NCBI RefSeq assembly: GCF_032362555.1
Contig: NC_083511.1
Coordinates: forward strand, 7,006,001-7,070,000
DNA length: 64,000 bases
Origin: Amyelois transitella
Lineage: Eukaryota > Arthropoda > Insecta > Lepidoptera > Pyralidae
Direction of reading: 5' to 3'
The translations under genes were made by a program, and so were the position numbers. The notes under the pieces are model-generated. The model searched no databases. It was not told the origin of the DNA and worked only from the letters and a program-made list of their open reading frames with translations. Positions 17,001 through 60,469 of the stretch are shown piece after piece. The stretch's first letter is position 1. Every line of letters begins with the position of its first letter.

Positions 17001-20000
17001 CTCTAAGTTGAATCTACAAAAAAAAACATCGTTGACTAACTATATCGTAAAAGCGTAATTTACATATTTTTTTAAAACCTTCATGCTAAAAGGTTTCTCT
17101 GCACAGATACCGTAAATTCTCTAGCAAAGTAGGTATCTAAGATAATCTAAGGTACGTATTTAAGTAGGTATCTACCTAGAAAAGTAAAGTTTGTAATGTC
17201 ATTCAATTTCAAACGAGAACACCGAACAAAACAATACATCCTAATCGATGTAAAATTACTTATAATGTCTTCAGAATGAAGTGAATTTTAAACGTCATTT
17301 ATTGTGAAAATACCTACCTCATGGAAATTAATGGAAAATCTCATGGAAATCTCAGTAAAAATGCTCAATGCATATATTTATATAATATATTTTTAAATAC
17401 ATACATACATACGGTCACATCTATATCCCTTGCGGGGTAGACAGAGCCAACTGTCTTGAAAAGACTGAATGGCCACGTTCAGCTATTTGGCTTAATGATA
17501 GAATTGAGATTAGATTCAAATAGAGACAGGTTGCTAGCCCATCGCCTAAAAAAGAATCCCAAGTTTGCAAGCCTATTCCTTAGTCGCCTTTTACGACATC
17601 CATGGGAAAGAGAAGGAGTGGTCCTATTCTTTTTTGTATTGGTGCCGGGAACCACACGGCAAATAATAATGTAATATAGTAACATAATATATTTTCTTCG
17701 AAAATACCTTACCTATAACATTATATCTAGACTTATTTGAAAATATAACTGGCCATCCTACCTTTAAGCCACAATAAAAAATGAAGGCACGCTTTCCAAG
17801 AATGCGAAACAAAGACATGTGCAGTACAGTGCAGTGAGCCACGGCTTTTTATTATCTCGCAGGTGTGAAAAGTAGAGTATGCTCCCTTGGGATAAAGCTT
17901 GTCTTCACAGAATCAGAATCTCTGTATTCTGTGCTTGTCTTTGGCTTGAGCAACCTGACACTGCTTTGTATATCTATCACTCAATCTACTATAACAATCT
18001 CAGTAGGTATGTAATACCTACACCGGCCGAAATAATAGTGCTCCATGAAATGTATCTAACATTCATCGATATCCATGCATATAATAACATTATACCGACA
18101 GATTTCTGAAAGTTAGGTATTTAAAAAAAATATATATAGATATGAAGGATTTTACATCCTAAAATCACATTTTCACTGTCTGTTACTCGCATCATATGAA
18201 AACCATTGCTGAAATTTTATTACGAAAAGTTTTCTGTCGGAATTATTTTTATTACGAGTATAAGGTTTAGGTTAGAGGCCATACAGTCAGCCTTTTTGCT
18301 TTAAGGCGGACGAAGTCCCTAATTACGATTTATTAAAGACAAAGTAGGTACTTAATTTTTTTATATTAATTTGTTTGCTTATATTTACTTTTACGATACG
18401 ACCTTGACGACTGTTCTTGAATAAGTGTTCTGTGTCCTTTGTGGGTTGGTTGACCTGATTCTATTCTAGTACTCGTAAATTTAAATAAATACTCATAAAT
18501 ACTATCATAAAAAATACTATTCATTACTTATTGAATATACTTACTGTTACTTCTGGGTAGTATTTAAGTCTATATATGTAATTCTAACTGATTTTAAACT
18601 TTCGCGTTGACCACAGATAATTGTAACATGATTCGAAACGTCCAAGATAAAATAAACTTATATAACGTGCGTGTTTAATACCTGTATTATTTAGAAAAAG
18701 TATGAGACTCCCCGAATGACGTGTCAGATGCTCTAACAAATAAAAATAAGTTAATTCTTATTATCGAAAATTCTTGCACACATTAAATGGGTTTATCCAA
18801 TTCCGTCTGTAGATTAAACTCTTGCACCGCGGTTCTTAAGCAGGGCATTCAAAAAATCCAATTCGTTTTTCCGGAAGTTTCCTTCATTCTGTGGAGCCGA
18901 CATCGTTCTGCAAACAGCCCGGATGGGATCGCTACGTCATTTGCTTTGCCTATCTTGTTTCGTCGACTTCGATCCACATGCATTCACACTTATGTGCGGA
19001 TATTTCTGAAGGAGATTGGAGACTACATTTTTAACTTTGGAAAGTATTTATTGGTGTAAATGGGTAAGGTGACATTATTAAAAGTGTAAGACTTTCTATC
19101 TGAGAAACAACATTTAGATGAGAATTTCAGAAATTCCCATAGAAGCCTCGGAAAAAGTTACTGGTGCTCGTTTGCTTCAGGTAGGACAGATTCGCTTAGA
19201 GGCAGAAATACGTATAAAGAGCTCGATAAACTACATAAAGTGAATCTGTCCTAAAGCGACATGCGTATGTACCTAGGTAAGTACGATATCAAATCAAAGC
19301 AAACACAACAAAGATTAAGAAAAGAGAAATAGTATACCTTCAAACATAATTAAGAGAATATTAAAGATATACATTCATAATCACGTCTTTATCCCTTATG
19401 GTGTAGATAAGGCCAATTTGGGATTCAAATAGCTGAATGTTAATCATTATAAAAAAATATTAAACTTACTTCCTGTCCGCCAAACGCGTCCATCGCGCGC
19501 CTGTGACATTCGCCCTTCTTAGCAAAAACGACATTTGTTGCTCCGGCAGCGATATGGCAACACTGTTGACAATGGTGGGGTCGATCGGGTTCATTCCCAG
19601 GTGCCCAGTATCCATTAGGATGAAAAATGTCCTCAAACCCCGCCGCAAGCAGTCGATGTTATCTGCCCGGCACGCTGGAAATGGCACGGGAGGCGGTTTG
19701 TCTGTAAATATAATATTACGAAGAGAATTCTGAATAATAAGACTAAAGCCCATCGTCTAAAAAAATATCAAGTTTATTAGTGAGCTTATCGTGGCCTTTC
19801 GGGTTTTTCGAGATTGTCTGCCTCGTACGGGATAAAGAAGTGATAAATGTATGCATTAAAGTGATAAGTACTGGTAAAAGTGACGTCGCAACTAAAGATT
19901 TTTAAAGTATTACACTAACCTTTTTTAAACTTATTACATCTCATTTCTGAATTTATTTGCCAGCTTTACATCTGCGCAGAAAACTGCTACATACCTTTAG

Positions 20001-26205: not shown

Positions 26206-26392
26206 AAGGCATGAGTTTGCCTGCAAATAAGTTACGAAATTAAAAATTCAAAGTCATTTATCATTGTACGACAGCATAATACCTATAACATATAAATATA
26301 AGTGAAAATCAGTTTGATAATATTCTGGTTTTGCCGCACATAACATGCGTAATTCTCACGTAAAAAGATTTTTGGTTTGTTAGTTTACTTTA

Positions 26393-26653
26393 GTGCCGTG
26401 TGGTTCCCGGCACCAATACAAAAAAATATAGGACCACTCTATCTCTTTCCCATGGATGTCGTAAAAGGCTACTAAGGGATAGGCTTACAAACTTGGGATT
26501 CTTTTTTAGGCGATGGGCTAGCAACCTGTCTCTATTTGAATCTTAATTCTATCTTAAAGCCAAATAGCTGAACGTGGCCTATCCGTCTTTACAAGACTGT
26601 TGGCTCTGTCTACCCCGCAAGGGATATAGACGTGATTATATGTATGTATGTAT
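26393..26653 (+). mobile_element. Full-length SINE-like element
   Basis: Head GTGCCGTGTGGTTCCCGGCA, 'aggaccactctatctctttc', 'ggatgtcgtaaaaggctac', 'ttgggattcttttttaggcg', 'ctagcaacctgtctctattt', 'gttggctctgtctaccccgc', 'aagggatatagacgtgatta' and a (tatg)n tail. This is the best forward copy and serves as the family reference here. Confidence 0.92.
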
Positions 26654-27686
26654 TGATCAAGTATTTATTTCAGAAAAGTGTTGCCGTACTAACACTCGCT
26701 AAAAATACAGGTACTTTTTACAAAGCAGGTAGACGAACACAAAAGTTTTAAGCCATTTAATATCACTGACATTTAGCATGCGCACGTTGAATACAGTCTG
26801 AGGCTAATTTATAATATATTATTTACAACAGTACAAAGTTTATTGCGACAAAGGAGAGAAACTCCAGTAGGAACTTCCAGTTATGAAGTGTTCATAATAC
26901 CTAATTTTCGCAGAATGGGAACCTTCTTTAGTGATTTTGTGGAAATATAAGTTAGGAACGTATACGTTAGGTTAGTTAGCGGTACTATATAAGTACCGCT
27001 TCGCCCTTGGTACAACACACGCTCAAAAATGTATCTTTTAAGAATTTTCATTGGTAACTGTCGAGTTTGCATGAAAAGAGTAGTGAATGCGGGGAAGCAG
27101 GAGAGAATTGTAGAAATCATAGCATGTAAGAAACAGGCATGTTGGTATGTATGTACCGCTACATAGGTCTTGATATAAACTTGATCTGATTAAGTAACAA
27201 TTTTTCTCATAACTTTAAGTTGATTAGATAAAATAGGACTTCTTTTTTTAGGGATAAAAAAAAAATAACAAAGAAGTGTACTTACTATATTTAATCAAAA
27301 TCATTTTTGAAACGAAGAATTTCAGAATTAACCCGGAAATTAATAAACAAAACTCTTAAGAAAATCTCTCTAACTATATGTTGTTTTAAATTTATCACCA
27401 ATAAAATTGTCGATCAAGAAAGTTAATGACGACAAGAGTACAGTTTAAAAATTATCATAAACTGAGATTTATTAACGAAGTTATTTCAAAAGAGTCATAA
27501 ATGTAATAGAGGAGATTGATAAGGAATCGAAGATTTTCATTTAGATATTTGGCTGTCATTGGTATTTTGAAGTATTAAAAGTAGGTAGATTTTAAGAGTT
27601 TAATGGTATTTTATATTATTATTTTTTATTTAAATTATTATGAGAACAAATATTCTCTCTCATTATATTATATGTAATATATATCA

Positions 27687-50017: not shown

Positions 50018-50281
50018 TACATACATTCATACATATGGTCACGTCTATATCCCTTGCGGGATAGACAGAGCCAACAGTCTTGAAAAGACTGAATAGCCAC
50101 ATTCAGCTTCTTGGCTAAATGATAGAATTGAGATTCAAATAGTGACAGGTTGCTAGCCCATCGCCTAAAAAAGAATCCCAAGCTTGTAAGCCTATCCCTT
50201 AGTCGCCTTTTACGACATCCATGGGAAAGAGATAGAGTGGTCCTATTCATTTTTGTATTGGTGCCGGGAACCACACGGCAC
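50018..50281 (-). mobile_element. Full-length SINE-like element
   Basis: On the + strand: (taca)n, 'ggtcacgtctatatccc', 'ttgcgggatagacagagcca', 'aagactgaatagccacattc', 'attcaaatagtgacaggttg', 'cccttagtcgccttttacga', 'agatagagtggtcctattca' and 'tgccgggaaccacacggcac'. It is very similar to the copies at 26.4 and 59.5 kb, implying recent activity. Confidence 0.92.
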
Positions 50282-50619
50282 TGTAAACATGTAAATCATT
50301 ACCTGTGATACTGGGCCGGGTCGCTAGTATGAAACAAACAATAAGGAAATATCGTATGTCATTGTACATTTAGGTCCTTTCAGTCATAAATTTATCAGCT
50401 TACATACTCCCAAAGGATGGAATACTTGTGAAATAAAACGCTAATGGATGTAATAATGGGAAAATGCCGGATTAATGACGCCTCAGTTGTTTATATATTA
50501 AGCTTTAATAAGAATAATGGCATGGAAAATCCCTGGCAATGAAGTTTTATTAAAATTACTTGTTTGGCCGAACTCGGATTTGGGAGGGAAAATTACAAAA
50601 TAATAATTATGATTAGGTA

Positions 50620-55698: not shown

Positions 55699-58171
55699 AC
55701 GTTATTTTACGAAATGTACTAATAGATATATATGTGTATAGCTTCGAGGTGAATTTTGGCTTGCATTTGAAATGAACCGAAAAAAAATAAAAGCTAATCA
55801 ATCTACAGGGTAATTATTTCTGCGGTTGTGTGCACAAATTTTGATATTTGTAGTAGGGCACATATTAAGTACAGTAAAAGTATTTTTGCTTCTACTCCTC
55901 TATTTTAAACTATACAAATTCAATGTTCGTTTAAAATATCATGTATTATGATACTGATTTGTAGCCAATTTTTCTTTACGATACGGAAGGACATGAACTT
56001 TGCTAATTAAAACTTTGATCATTTTTTAAAAAAAATATTTTGAAAATGCCGCCGTAGGGGCTTCGGAGACACTTAATTTGGATAATGTACTAAGTTTAAA
56101 AAGTATACGCAATATCCTTAAGCCGTTGCATACACCTGCCATCAAATTTCCATTTTTTTTGATAAGCAAGATTTATTAAAATTATAATTTTTATCCATAC
56201 TTTCCCTAGTCGTAAGTCCTTAATAAGGCATTTATTTAGTACACGCTTAAATATTATTTTAGATTACCTTCATTAAGAGAGTCATGAATGTGGGTGAACC
56301 GATGAGTATTCATTCGTGACAACTAAAGAGCTGTAATTTTTATCTAATTATTGATGTGAAGTATTATGTATGAAGCATTAGAGGATTATTAGAAGATTAA
56401 TAAATGCACAGCGGAAACCAGTGTTTCAATTTCGCTTCACTTAGCATTCATGCATATATTCACATAGTTGTTATAGTCACATCTCATACATAGTCGTGCG
56501 CCCAAGGAAAAATTTGAAAATTTCTATGCATGCAAAGTCCTTGGCAGAGGCTTATATTAAAATAAGAGTAAGTATTCAATTCCTTAACATTTAAAACCGC
56601 GATTAAAGGCTTCCACTCAGCGACTGAAACTATGTAGGGTAGATACCTGCAATTATGAACTTTCAACGAGCTTCACAAGTTGCTCTGCATTTTCCTTGGC
56701 AGGTAATAAGCTATTGCGTGCTTTATACAACTTTGTGAAAATTTATTAGTAAATACACATTACGAACTTAAAAAATATACACTATTTTCTATCTGCGGAT
56801 TTAAATTGGCATTCTGTTTATAATATACTTACAGTAATATGTAAAATAATTGTAAGTAAATGTCATCCCTTAGATCTCTCTCCCTTCTATGTATGTAGAG
56901 AAATAATCAAGCTTAAGAAAGTTTCACGATATAGTTAGAATCATTAGGCATTTTGAAATCAGTAGTTTTCATACAATGACCTGGTTTTCATTTTTAAAGG
57001 ATACATTTGGATTGAAATTATGTTTCAGTAGAGACCATACAAGTAGTCTGTCCCGAACAATCAGCGAAGTCAGCTAGTATCTAGCCTTAAATTTTTAAAG
57101 TATGAAATTAAAAACTAATACGATTTTTTTTTGCCCAAATGTCATCCAAACCTTTTGAAATTGAAAGCCAGGTTACGTTGATCAAAAAATTTGCAATTCA
57201 TATAATACCTATTGCCTTACTACCTCGTAATACCGATAGTAAGCTACTGTTAAATATCACTTCCGAATGGAGTGCCATCCACACTATAGATCACATACAC
57301 CACATTCAGACTGTCCTTCGGTTAAGTCACTACCGAGAACTGATAAATTTAGTACAGACCTATACACATAAATCGTGCAAATAGTTTGGTTGCAGTGGCG
57401 TTAACAATTAAACGGTATGTCGAATCAGGAGGCAGGAAACTCTGCATATTGGTGTCTCGTATCTATCTAATCTATACCTATAAAAGAGTTAGTGTCTGAC
57501 TGATTGACTAGTCTTATATATTACTGGTCTAATATATATTTATAGGTTTAAAAATTTTAAATATGGCACGTAGATTCCTTATGACATTTACATATGTCAT
57601 AAGCGGTCAGTTAATCAGTCAGGGAAATTAACGCTAATTTTTTGGTTGCACTCATCAAAAAAACACATATTACGTAAAACGTTTTTTTAACTTATATCAA
57701 TTTATTGAGTTATTAATTACAGAAGGATAAAATGTTAAACTCAAACACGATCGCTCAGTTTTGTTCCAAGCGTAGCGGGATTTGGTCGTCAACTTCCGCT
57801 TTTATAGACATACGCCAATTTTTAGATATGGCATCTGATTTATTCGCGATCCCCAGGGCGAGGGGTTATACTCGATCGTAGAAAATCGATTGTACTAAAT
57901 CATTGGTATATCAACACGTATTTATAAAACGAAGACTTAGAAGGGAACGGATTGATGAGCTGAAAATTTTTAGTAGAGATAAGAAAAAAATATATAGTTT
58001 TTTCATTAAGAAAATACGGTTACAATAAGCGTCAGTTTGCAGATATAAATGTACGTACTTGTCATCTCAAAAGGAATTAATTACAGCTACCAATAATAGC
58101 GTACCTACCACTTAGTATAGGCATTCGCAAGTGTGGCAGGTAATTTGAGGTAATCTATCACGAATAGCCTA

Positions 58172-58679
58172 AGAGCTAGTGAACCCTCCGAGTAACGGTG
58201 TTCCTGTAAGGCTAGAAATTTGTAGAGTGATGATTCATAGCACACCAAGGCCAAAAATCATGACCTGGCAGGCATCTGCCCTGCACGTCATCAACACTTT
58301 TATTTCTTAAAATGTAAAATACATAGGAAAAAAATACTTCCTGCTGTAAGCTTCAAAATTTAATATCATCTATTTTATACATTGATAATTATATAAAAAA
58401 ATTGCCAGGCGATTAGAGTAAGCAGAAGTACCTGCCAGGTGCATCGAGAACTGCACAGTTTAGGAAGAAAAATAAACTTTCTTCTGTAAAGTTGAAATTT
58501 AAGTATATGTTTTAGTATATCATTTAGAAGAAATGTGTACAATGACAGGCGGTTCTGAACAGCATAAGACCTTGACAGGCGAGGGTAAGATGCTAAGAAC
58601 GTGCGAGTAAGAGGCGTAACGTAAATGCATGTAGTGTCAGTGACATGTAAGAAAGTTAAAAATTATAGATGCAATATAC
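58172..58679 (+). repeat. Left arm of a 508-bp perfect inverted repeat
   Basis: Read line by line, this arm is identical to the reverse complement of 59734-60241 with no mismatch or gap found. The match stops abruptly: outside 58172 and 60241 the flanks differ at once, and inside it decays after 58679/59734. The arm contains diverged internal units starting 'ctgtaag' at about 58204, 58344, 58484 and 58645, and recurring GCCAGG/ACAGGC motifs. No ORF is present. Confidence 0.95.
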
Positions 58680-58984
58680 GTATTTTACTAATTGTTATGT
58701 AATTTACACGTTTTTTCATATTAATTATCATCATCATCCGACACTTCTTCACTACTACTTTTTTATCATCACCCGACTCTTTTTTATATCGTATCCTCCT
58801 ATATCGTTTTCCTCCTCTGAAAAAATATTTCTATAAATTAATAATGTCATAAAGAATGGAATATCGCGTTCAATTACATAGGACTGTATATGGAATCTTA
58901 TTGAATCAAATAACTGTATATTATACCTGAAATGTATTCTACAGTTAAAAATTCATTCATTCTTCAGAAAAACAAAAATGCACT

Positions 58985-59240
58985 AATCTATATCTATACA
59001 TATAATAAATCTGTAGAAGGGTCAATTCTGTACATTGAAAATATTGAAAAAATAAATAGCAGAAACCCAAATATGTGATTAAAAAAATTTTTGTCTGTCT
59101 GTCTGTATGTTCAGGCATCACGTGAAAACTAACGGTTCGATTTCGATGAAACTTGGTATAATTATACCTTATTATCCTGGGCATAAAATAGGATACTTTT
59201 TATCCTGGAAAAATACGTAGAAAAAAAATCTTGATTTTTC
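58985..59240 (+). repeat. Dispersed repeat in the palindrome spacer
   Basis: It contains 'tctatacatataataaatct', 'ttttgtctgtctgtctgtat', 'cggttcgatttcgatgaaac', 'ttggtataattatacc' and 'aggatactttttatcctgga'. This is a common lepidopteran repeat pattern, also seen in part at 25920-26205. Confidence 0.6.
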
Positions 59241-59244
59241 AGTT

Positions 59245-59477
59245 TTATCCACAGACATTGTTCTGTAGAACCGCGAACACACGTTGCGTTACCCGCAGTG
59301 GATGAAGCGCCGTAACCTGTAGCGCCGAAAGTCGGCTTTGGCTTGAACTGTTTGCGGCAAACGCGGGCTGTCTTTATTATTGGAATTAATAATATTGTAT
59401 GCGTGTAATAACCCATGGGTGGAATAACTGTTCTTTTTTGTGGCGACTTTAGACATTTTCTGCCGGTGATACCACGA
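59245..59477 (-). other. Open minus-strand segment of unknown origin
   Basis: A minus-strand frame (59162-59527) stays open through this segment and into the SINE head. The unique part includes KQFKPKPTFGATGYGASSTAG and NATCVRGSTEQC. A second frame (59289-59522) is also open. GC content is higher than its surroundings. I do not recognise a protein. The frame has no start outside the SINE, so it may be a captured fragment or repeat DNA rather than a gene. Confidence 0.25.
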
Positions 59478-59733
59478 GTGCCGTGTGGTTCCCGGCCCCA
59501 ATACAAAAAAGAATAGGACCACTCCATCTCTTTCCCATGGATGTCGTAAAAGGCGACTAAGGAATAGGCTTACAAACTTGGGATTCTTTTTAGGCGATGG
59601 GTTAGCAACCTGTCACTATTTGAATCTCAATTCTATCATTAAGCCAAATAGCTGAACGTGGCCATTCAGTCTTTTCAAGACTATGGGCTCTGTCTACCTC
59701 GCAAGAGATATAGACGTGACCATATGTATGTAT
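59478..59733 (+). mobile_element. Full-length SINE-like element inside the palindrome spacer
   Basis: Head GTGCCGTGTGGTTCCCGGCC, 'aggaccactccatctctttc', 'ggatgtcgtaaaaggcgact', 'ggcgatgggttagcaacctg', 'cattaagccaaatagctgaa' and 'ctctgtctacctcgc', with tail 'catatgtatgtatgt'. The tail runs straight into the right palindrome arm. Confidence 0.92.
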
Positions 59734-60241
59734 GTATATTGCATCTATAATTTTTAACTTTCTTACATGTCACTGACACTACATGCATTTACGTTACGCC
59801 TCTTACTCGCACGTTCTTAGCATCTTACCCTCGCCTGTCAAGGTCTTATGCTGTTCAGAACCGCCTGTCATTGTACACATTTCTTCTAAATGATATACTA
59901 AAACATATACTTAAATTTCAACTTTACAGAAGAAAGTTTATTTTTCTTCCTAAACTGTGCAGTTCTCGATGCACCTGGCAGGTACTTCTGCTTACTCTAA
60001 TCGCCTGGCAATTTTTTTATATAATTATCAATGTATAAAATAGATGATATTAAATTTTGAAGCTTACAGCAGGAAGTATTTTTTTCCTATGTATTTTACA
60101 TTTTAAGAAATAAAAGTGTTGATGACGTGCAGGGCAGATGCCTGCCAGGTCATGATTTTTGGCCTTGGTGTGCTATGAATCATCACTCTACAAATTTCTA
60201 GCCTTACAGGAACACCGTTACTCGGAGGGTTCACTAGCTCT
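59734..60241 (-). repeat. Right arm of the 508-bp perfect inverted repeat
   Basis: It is the exact reverse complement of 58172-58679. Its outer end is 'gggttcactagctct'. The next bases (ccagctag) do not match the left flank, and I see no target-site duplication. Confidence 0.95.
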
Positions 60242-60469
60242 CCAGCTAGAACTGTCACCAGCTCTCCGATATATTTGTGCAAAGAAGTAATGAAAGGTCA
60301 AAGTCAGATAGATTTTGCGCCAATTTATTTCTCTAAACGATCATGATGGATGATCATAAAATTATTTTGATTCATCTTCTAGTGTCCATGTCGGTCGGAT
60401 AACTAAAAAAAAAACATAGTGTCTCTTTCCGCATAGATTGTGAAATTCAATCAAGGAAACGCTTTTAAA

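Follow-up and report, generated by a model that had tools for sequence, protein, structure and literature searches.

The inverted repeat at the centre of this analysis is very probably an inserted DNA transposon of the non-autonomous kind, whose very long terminal inverted repeats (the arms) have been homogenised and whose interior has been flipped. It lies in the window (the whole stretch of 64,000 nucleotides that was analysed, G000:C7:7006001-7070000). The features of class II non-autonomous elements with terminal inverted repeats were found: fixed-end inverted repeats in dispersed copies, a 3-bp duplication and no intact transposase in the window copy. The structure is one copy of a mobile-element family (family 1) and is thereby explained, so it does not represent a new type of system. 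The first-pass annotation had offered a foldback element with long terminal inverted repeats as one of several origins, and the dispersed copies, fixed tips and 3-bp target duplications show this choice to be right.

Structure, ends and copies of the element

The two 508-bp arms are 100% reverse complementary and enclose 1054 bp, as found by both base comparison and repeat search. The coordinates given earlier are correct for the arms; the true unit is wider (58165-60248) and includes 7-bp tips outside the arms, flanked by GAA (Table 1). Extension of the arms by three bases inward adds one mismatch (511 bp, 99.8%), and the repeat search stretches the inverted repeat to 518 nt at 99%. Among the matches listed in a window-wide comparison, the 508-bp pair is by far the longest inverted repeat, followed by one of approximately 265 bp (93%) between copies of a dispersed repeat. 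A perfect inverted repeat of 508 bp is not of chance origin. The two tips of the window element are alike only in their first four bases, TAGC. Other copies of the ATGT-type repeat of the interior are present in the window near 17397-17661, 26392-26654 and 50021-50282.

Table 1. Features of the window element (positions are those of the window)
Feature	Position	Strand	Observation or basis
Left target-site duplication, GAA	58162..58164	.	Matching 3-bp flanks in 29/32 paired family copies
Tip A, TAGCCTA, 7 bp	58165..58171	+	Outside the identical arm, unlike the other tip
Left arm (A arm), 508 bp, identical to right arm	58172..58679	+	At least 43 genome matches
Interior part, probably ancestral interior; right border approximate	58680..58985	.	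About 265 bp also adjoin the B arm of subfamily 2; orientation relative to the tips varies among copies
Interior part, dispersed repeat also found without arms	58986..59477	.	Many genome places match only from query position of about 304 onward
Interior part, high-copy dispersed repeat (about 255 bp) with a terminal ATGT-type run	59478..59733	.	Further copies in the window
Right arm (B arm), 508 bp	59734..60241	-	Repeat comparison
Tip B, TAGCTGG inward on the - strand (CCAGCTA on +), 7 bp	60242..60248	-	Ends of copies compared
Right target-site duplication, GAA	60249..60251	.	Flank comparison

Genome-wide searches were conducted in the 327-Mb assembly of 33 contigs, which is probably lepidopteran. 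One arm gave at least 43 matches with 88 to 100% identity, many of them in inverted pairs; this number is a lower bound, 40 of 88 candidates having been scored. These are further copies of the kind sought in the first-pass annotation, with the same outer ends and, in most pairs, 3-bp target duplications. A fixed end is present just outside the arms, where tip A reads TAGCCTA or TAGTCTA and tip B reads TAGCTGG or TAGTTGG. Both tips continue with AGAGCTAGTGAACCC, exact or with one change, in nearly all copies. Allowing up to three mismatches, 62 + 49 = 111 family tips were detected genome-wide, and none with a reversed-pattern control. The tip list covers 100 of the 111, eleven of which sit in one tandem array. 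This array (G000:C19:9363456-9364337) consists of eleven family tips in the same orientation (TAGTCTAAGAGCTAG and near variants) spaced 77-116 bp apart, and is thus a small array built from a transposon end.

Twenty-seven loci were fetched around arm matches. Both tips were recognised in 19, and the copy at L015 was completed with L046. Seven loci were left out, namely L025, which has an altered second tip, and L014, L020, L021, L024, L033 and L035, each with one recognised tip. Twelve additional copies form the short-copy set. Matching 3-bp flanks were found in all 20 long paired copies and in 9 of the 12 short ones (29/32 overall), with three short copies lacking a match; when the right flanks were dealt out among the 32 copies, 4.1 matches were obtained on average versus the 29 observed. 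The 29 matching triplets are AT-rich and not fixed, comprising TTA (8), TAA (5), TAT (4), TTT (3), CAA (2) and seven others found once each. In every one of the 32 pairs (20 long and 12 short), one tip is of type A and one of type B. Two short copies, L052 (C17:2916449-2916761) and L053 (C17:2933132-2933455), lie 17 kb apart in similar flanks without a 3-bp match, and are perhaps one insertion that was duplicated together with its surroundings.

A family copy on C9 is inserted in a dispersed repeat, many copies of which align across the junction once the flanks of the family copy are joined and one TAA is taken out. The two alignments shown have no gap at the junction and differ in the third base of the triplet, so the matching places represent related members of the repeat, at other loci.

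The arms were also considered as a hairpin-RNA locus of the host, in which they would be kept identical for the production of siRNAs by Dicer-2. As predicted from sequence, read-through transcription would give a duplex of 508 bp. However, the locus belongs to a transposon family with many copies and target duplications, the arm by itself folds much as shuffled sequence does (z -0.82), and no Rfam family matches the window at gathering score. Such a locus is very unlikely, and the proposal is not needed to explain the structure in the window.

Similarity of the arms within copies

Family 1 includes two subfamilies. Subfamily 1 consists of 13 copies with the interior of the window element, six of which are 2.05-2.1 kb long; insertions or deletions have given the others lengths of 1.2 to 7.1 kb. 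The C9 copy, L046/L015 (C9:4580664-4587768), carries a nested Copia-type retrotransposon with an open frame of 1334 aa. Subfamily 2 (L027-L032) consists of copies of 2.4-3.2 kb, the arms of which are approximately 440 bp long and 94-96% identical to the window arm. When aligned to the window element, all six match on the A side up to about position 445 and on the B side over some 510-516 bp. On one reading of this alignment, the A arm of subfamily 1 may have gained approximately 64 bp copied from the B side, as in Galileo; a loss of approximately 64 bp in subfamily 2 is the alternative.

The arms of 8 of the 13 subfamily-1 copies were compared (L015, L016, L017, L018 and L026 were excluded because of truncated or interrupted arms). 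The mean difference between the two arms of a copy is 0.0111, versus 0.026 when arms are re-paired, with values as low in 0 of 20000 re-pairings. A and B arms are not separated by any near-fixed site. In six of the eight copies, both arms are mutually nearest on the arm tree; those of L011 and of L012 are neighbours at an open fork. Relative to the other subfamily-1 copies of the set, the window copy has three private variants in both arms and none in one arm alone, although variants common to both arms could descend from a donor that was already homogenised.

The six A arms of subfamily 2 are united in one clade (96/90); most B arms (five of six) group together with weaker support, and L028_B lies beside the A arms. 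Four sites are near-fixed between the sides, and the within-copy difference is 0.0152, versus 0.0168 after re-pairing (as low in 172/20000). Taken together, these statistics indicate that homogenisation is strong in the subfamily of the window element and weak in its sister. Arm-to-arm gene conversion, another of the origins proposed earlier, is thus supported by within-copy arm similarity as a property of the window's subfamily.

Among the 13 copies compared, the window copy has the fewest arm differences, and the 12 others have 2 to 13 arm mismatches. These mismatches also bear on an assembly artefact, i.e., a collapsed or chimeric inverted duplication, which the first-pass annotation had raised. 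A collapsed repeat would give the perfect identity over 508 bp, but the unit is bounded by family tips and a target duplication, and the mismatches in the other copies indicate that the assembly resolves such arms elsewhere; an artefact is therefore extremely improbable. The very recent duplication suggested in the same annotation was not borne out, because the terminal branch of the window interior, at 0.0079, ranks no better than fourth shortest among 12, even with the arms being the least different of the 13. As the arms are homogenised, their difference is no clock for the age of a copy. A recent insertion of the window copy is possible; given arm recombination, perfect identity marks recent homogenisation, recent insertion or both, and the data do not separate the two.

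Orientation of the interior

The interior has the window's orientation relative to the tips in seven subfamily-1 copies (L009, L012, L013, L019, L022, L023 and L026) and the opposite orientation in six (L010, L011, L015, L016, L017 and L018). The six copies of subfamily 2 and L034 all have the opposite orientation, which is therefore probably ancestral. A tree was built from 12 of the 13 subfamily-1 interiors and two subfamily-2 pieces, all turned to one strand; L016 and L034 were excluded as too short. Four switches of orientation are placed on this tree, at least three of which are forced by well supported branches, and a single change was found in 0% of 200 bootstrap trees. Without the outgroup there are three changes, at least two of them forced. 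The orientation labels are no more clustered on the tree than shuffled ones (132/500 as low). An approximately unbiased (AU) test, which presumes a group named before the tree is seen, rejects the window-like copies as one clade (p 2.3e-13; p 6.4e-7 without the outgroup). The interior is turned the other way in L010, the nearest relative of the window copy (support 96/92).

A crossover between the inverted arms, which flips the interior, is the simplest mechanism for this pattern. The orientation pattern expected from inversion would also result if both tips were exchanged. One-sided conversion of a tip predicts like-tipped copies, and such copies were found in 0 of 32 pairs. The arms and orientations could also have arisen with no arm-to-arm recombination, recently amplified master copies giving alike arms and two old masters giving the two orientations. 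Subfamily 2, with its A arms grouping together, behaves in this way, but the arms of subfamily 1 pair within copies and the orientation does not follow one clade, which makes such an origin very unlikely. Recombination between arms is preferred here. Among the papers listed in literature searches, a few of which were consulted, no description of recurrent interior inversion was found.

Transposase, a second family and known systems

No frame in the window element exceeds 135 aa from stop to stop, and the longest is of no recognised kind. The earlier statement that no enzyme is encoded is correct for the window copy; the sister subfamily contains a transposase-like remnant. Between the interior and the B arm, all six subfamily-2 copies have an open frame (118 to 135 aa). 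Together with neighbouring interrupted pieces, this frame matches residues 401-611 of a 618-aa stretch encoded on contig C32 (32-54% identity per piece), which is part of an 812-aa open frame. Three copies of the transposase-like gene are located on this contig (G000:C32:5300072-5301925, C32:5538295-5540148 and C32:5879072-5880923), the longest open frame being 812 aa. Beyond the C32 transposase-like gene is a repeat headed by a tRNA-like sequence, recognised by eye (L045, approximately 2485-2560); the repeat is perhaps a tRNA-derived SINE. The loci L043 and L044 share 99.8% identity over 3.3 kb and contain the frame of a mariner transposase.

The 618-aa part and the subfamily-2 remnant had no match in Pfam. 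An upstream part of a neighbouring copy gave a sub-threshold match to DUF6589 (E 2e-4, 20.6 bits, cut-off 27), and another upstream part gave a chance-level match to BRX_N. In a sequence search of PDB, the 618-aa part had no matches, and P0001 had six up to E 10, the best (E 0.0076) being to designed SAKe and LSm14 chains. The C32 protein contains acidic motifs, recognised by eye, which we take to be XPG/FEN1-like. Among the listed tips and protein matches, no whole transposase gene was found between family-1 tips, so that mobilisation would occur in trans. In viral_contigs, which was searched for a viral carrier, there was no exact 20-base match to the tips and no encoded relative of the transposase-like protein.

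The most likely driver, with a fair degree of probability, is a transposase of the Academ type (AcademX, with duplications of 3-4 bp). The 3-bp duplications and the presumed XPG-like motifs in the protein related to the remnant make putative membership of Academ the best guess. A PIF/Harbinger-type non-autonomous element with a 3-bp TWA target duplication would likewise give duplications of this length, and 13 of the 29 matching ones are TTA or TAA; however, the other 16 are not TWA and the Pfam searches of the remnant and its 618-aa relative were both negative, so this assignment is unlikely.

A second long-armed family (L042, L061, L062 and L063; on C12, C8 and C3) was reached through the protein remnant. 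Its arms are 594 to 835 bp long with 98.3-99.0% identity, and its tips read TAGTCCA and TAGAG(T/C)A, followed by AGATCCCAGAGCC. Matching 3-bp flanks were found in three of the four copies read (L063 by eye), the exception being L061, which has an altered B tip, and a related transposase remnant is present in three of the four. Genome-wide, 136 + 135 = 271 tips were detected with up to two mismatches (control, 0). Ninety-four of 100 listed tips (of the 271) form 47 pairs, all 47 with unlike tips. The interior lies one way in 21 of 24 copies and the other way in three; 42 of 45 matches were used for this count, 24 of them inside a listed tip pair and 18 not. As read from the sequence, the interior of L061 is opposite to those of L042 and L062. 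With the same layout in a second family, the plan is not peculiar to one family.

The motif CAGGCR occurs four times in the window arm, versus a mean of 0.30 in 500 Markov-sampled sequences, and once in the arm of the second family, a count reached in 64 of 500 such sequences. It is not relied on as a binding site because the second family's arm has just one. The arms of both families share an uncontrolled count of 12 nine-mers, each with at most two G or C.

The events leading to such elements may be proposed as follows. A transposase from another copy would recognise one A tip and one B tip, excise the element and reinsert it with a 3-bp stagger. The two arms would recombine with each other at breaks in or around the element. 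Conversion tracts would keep the arms of one copy alike and end before the unlike tips, or else like-tipped copies would be lost, and crossovers between the arms would invert everything between them. Unlike tips are present in 79 of 79 listed pairs of both families. We tentatively suggest that the two families follow one plan, with a repeatedly inverting interior, unlike tips that escape homogenisation and long arms whose concerted evolution within a copy is seen in the subfamily of the window element. The tips could be a left/right code that the transposase must read, homogenisation of the tips would kill a copy, and homogenisation or inversion further inward would be tolerated; this might represent a foldback-type life style in an Academ-like lineage.

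These families bear on why some unrelated DNA transposons have very long inverted arms. Two families in one genome with alike, presumably homogenised arms, inverted interiors and unlike tips provide a natural experiment on two ideas, namely that arm recombination arises as a by-product of excision repair and that unlike ends are demanded by the transposase. For annotation, subfamilies are not reliably marked by the orientation of the interior relative to the tips, and age cannot simply be read from perfect arm identity.

Foldback and MULE-type elements (FB, Tetris) have long inverted arms, a variable middle and target duplications of 9-10 bp. Family 1 has the long arms and variable middle as well as a tandem array derived from its tip, whereas its target duplication is 3 bp.

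Target duplications of 3 or 4 bp in AcademX and 3 bp in Academ are given in the available parts of the sources (PMC10045372, PMC5199201), and two Academ lineages are linked there to a helicase and a nuclease (PMC10045372). Family 1, with 3 bp, falls in the same duplication class as AcademX-type Academ, a likeness in duplication length. The nuclease lineage, as partly described, may be compared with the C32 relative of the remnant, in which the presumed XPG-like motifs were recognised by eye.

Galileo, a member of the P superfamily in Drosophila, has long terminal inverted repeats, many non-autonomous copies and 98 to 100% identity between the repeats of a copy, according to the available part of its description (PMC3573991). 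The repeats have been lengthened by recruitment of neighbouring internal sequence, and recombination and conversion are invoked (PMC3573991). Galileo has a P-type transposase and a target duplication of 7 bp (PMC3573991), within a range of 7-8 bp for Galileo and the P superfamily, whereas that of family 1 is 3 bp. The unlike 7-bp tips and the recurrent interior inversion of family 1 do not appear in the part of the Galileo description available (PMC3573991). As far as these sources extend, Galileo nevertheless shows the closest known behaviour, in another superfamily, since its arms are likewise described as alike and recombining. The proposal of an undescribed system in the first-pass annotation was therefore too strong, and some novelty lies in concerted arms occurring together with repeated inversion of the interior and tips that stay unlike.
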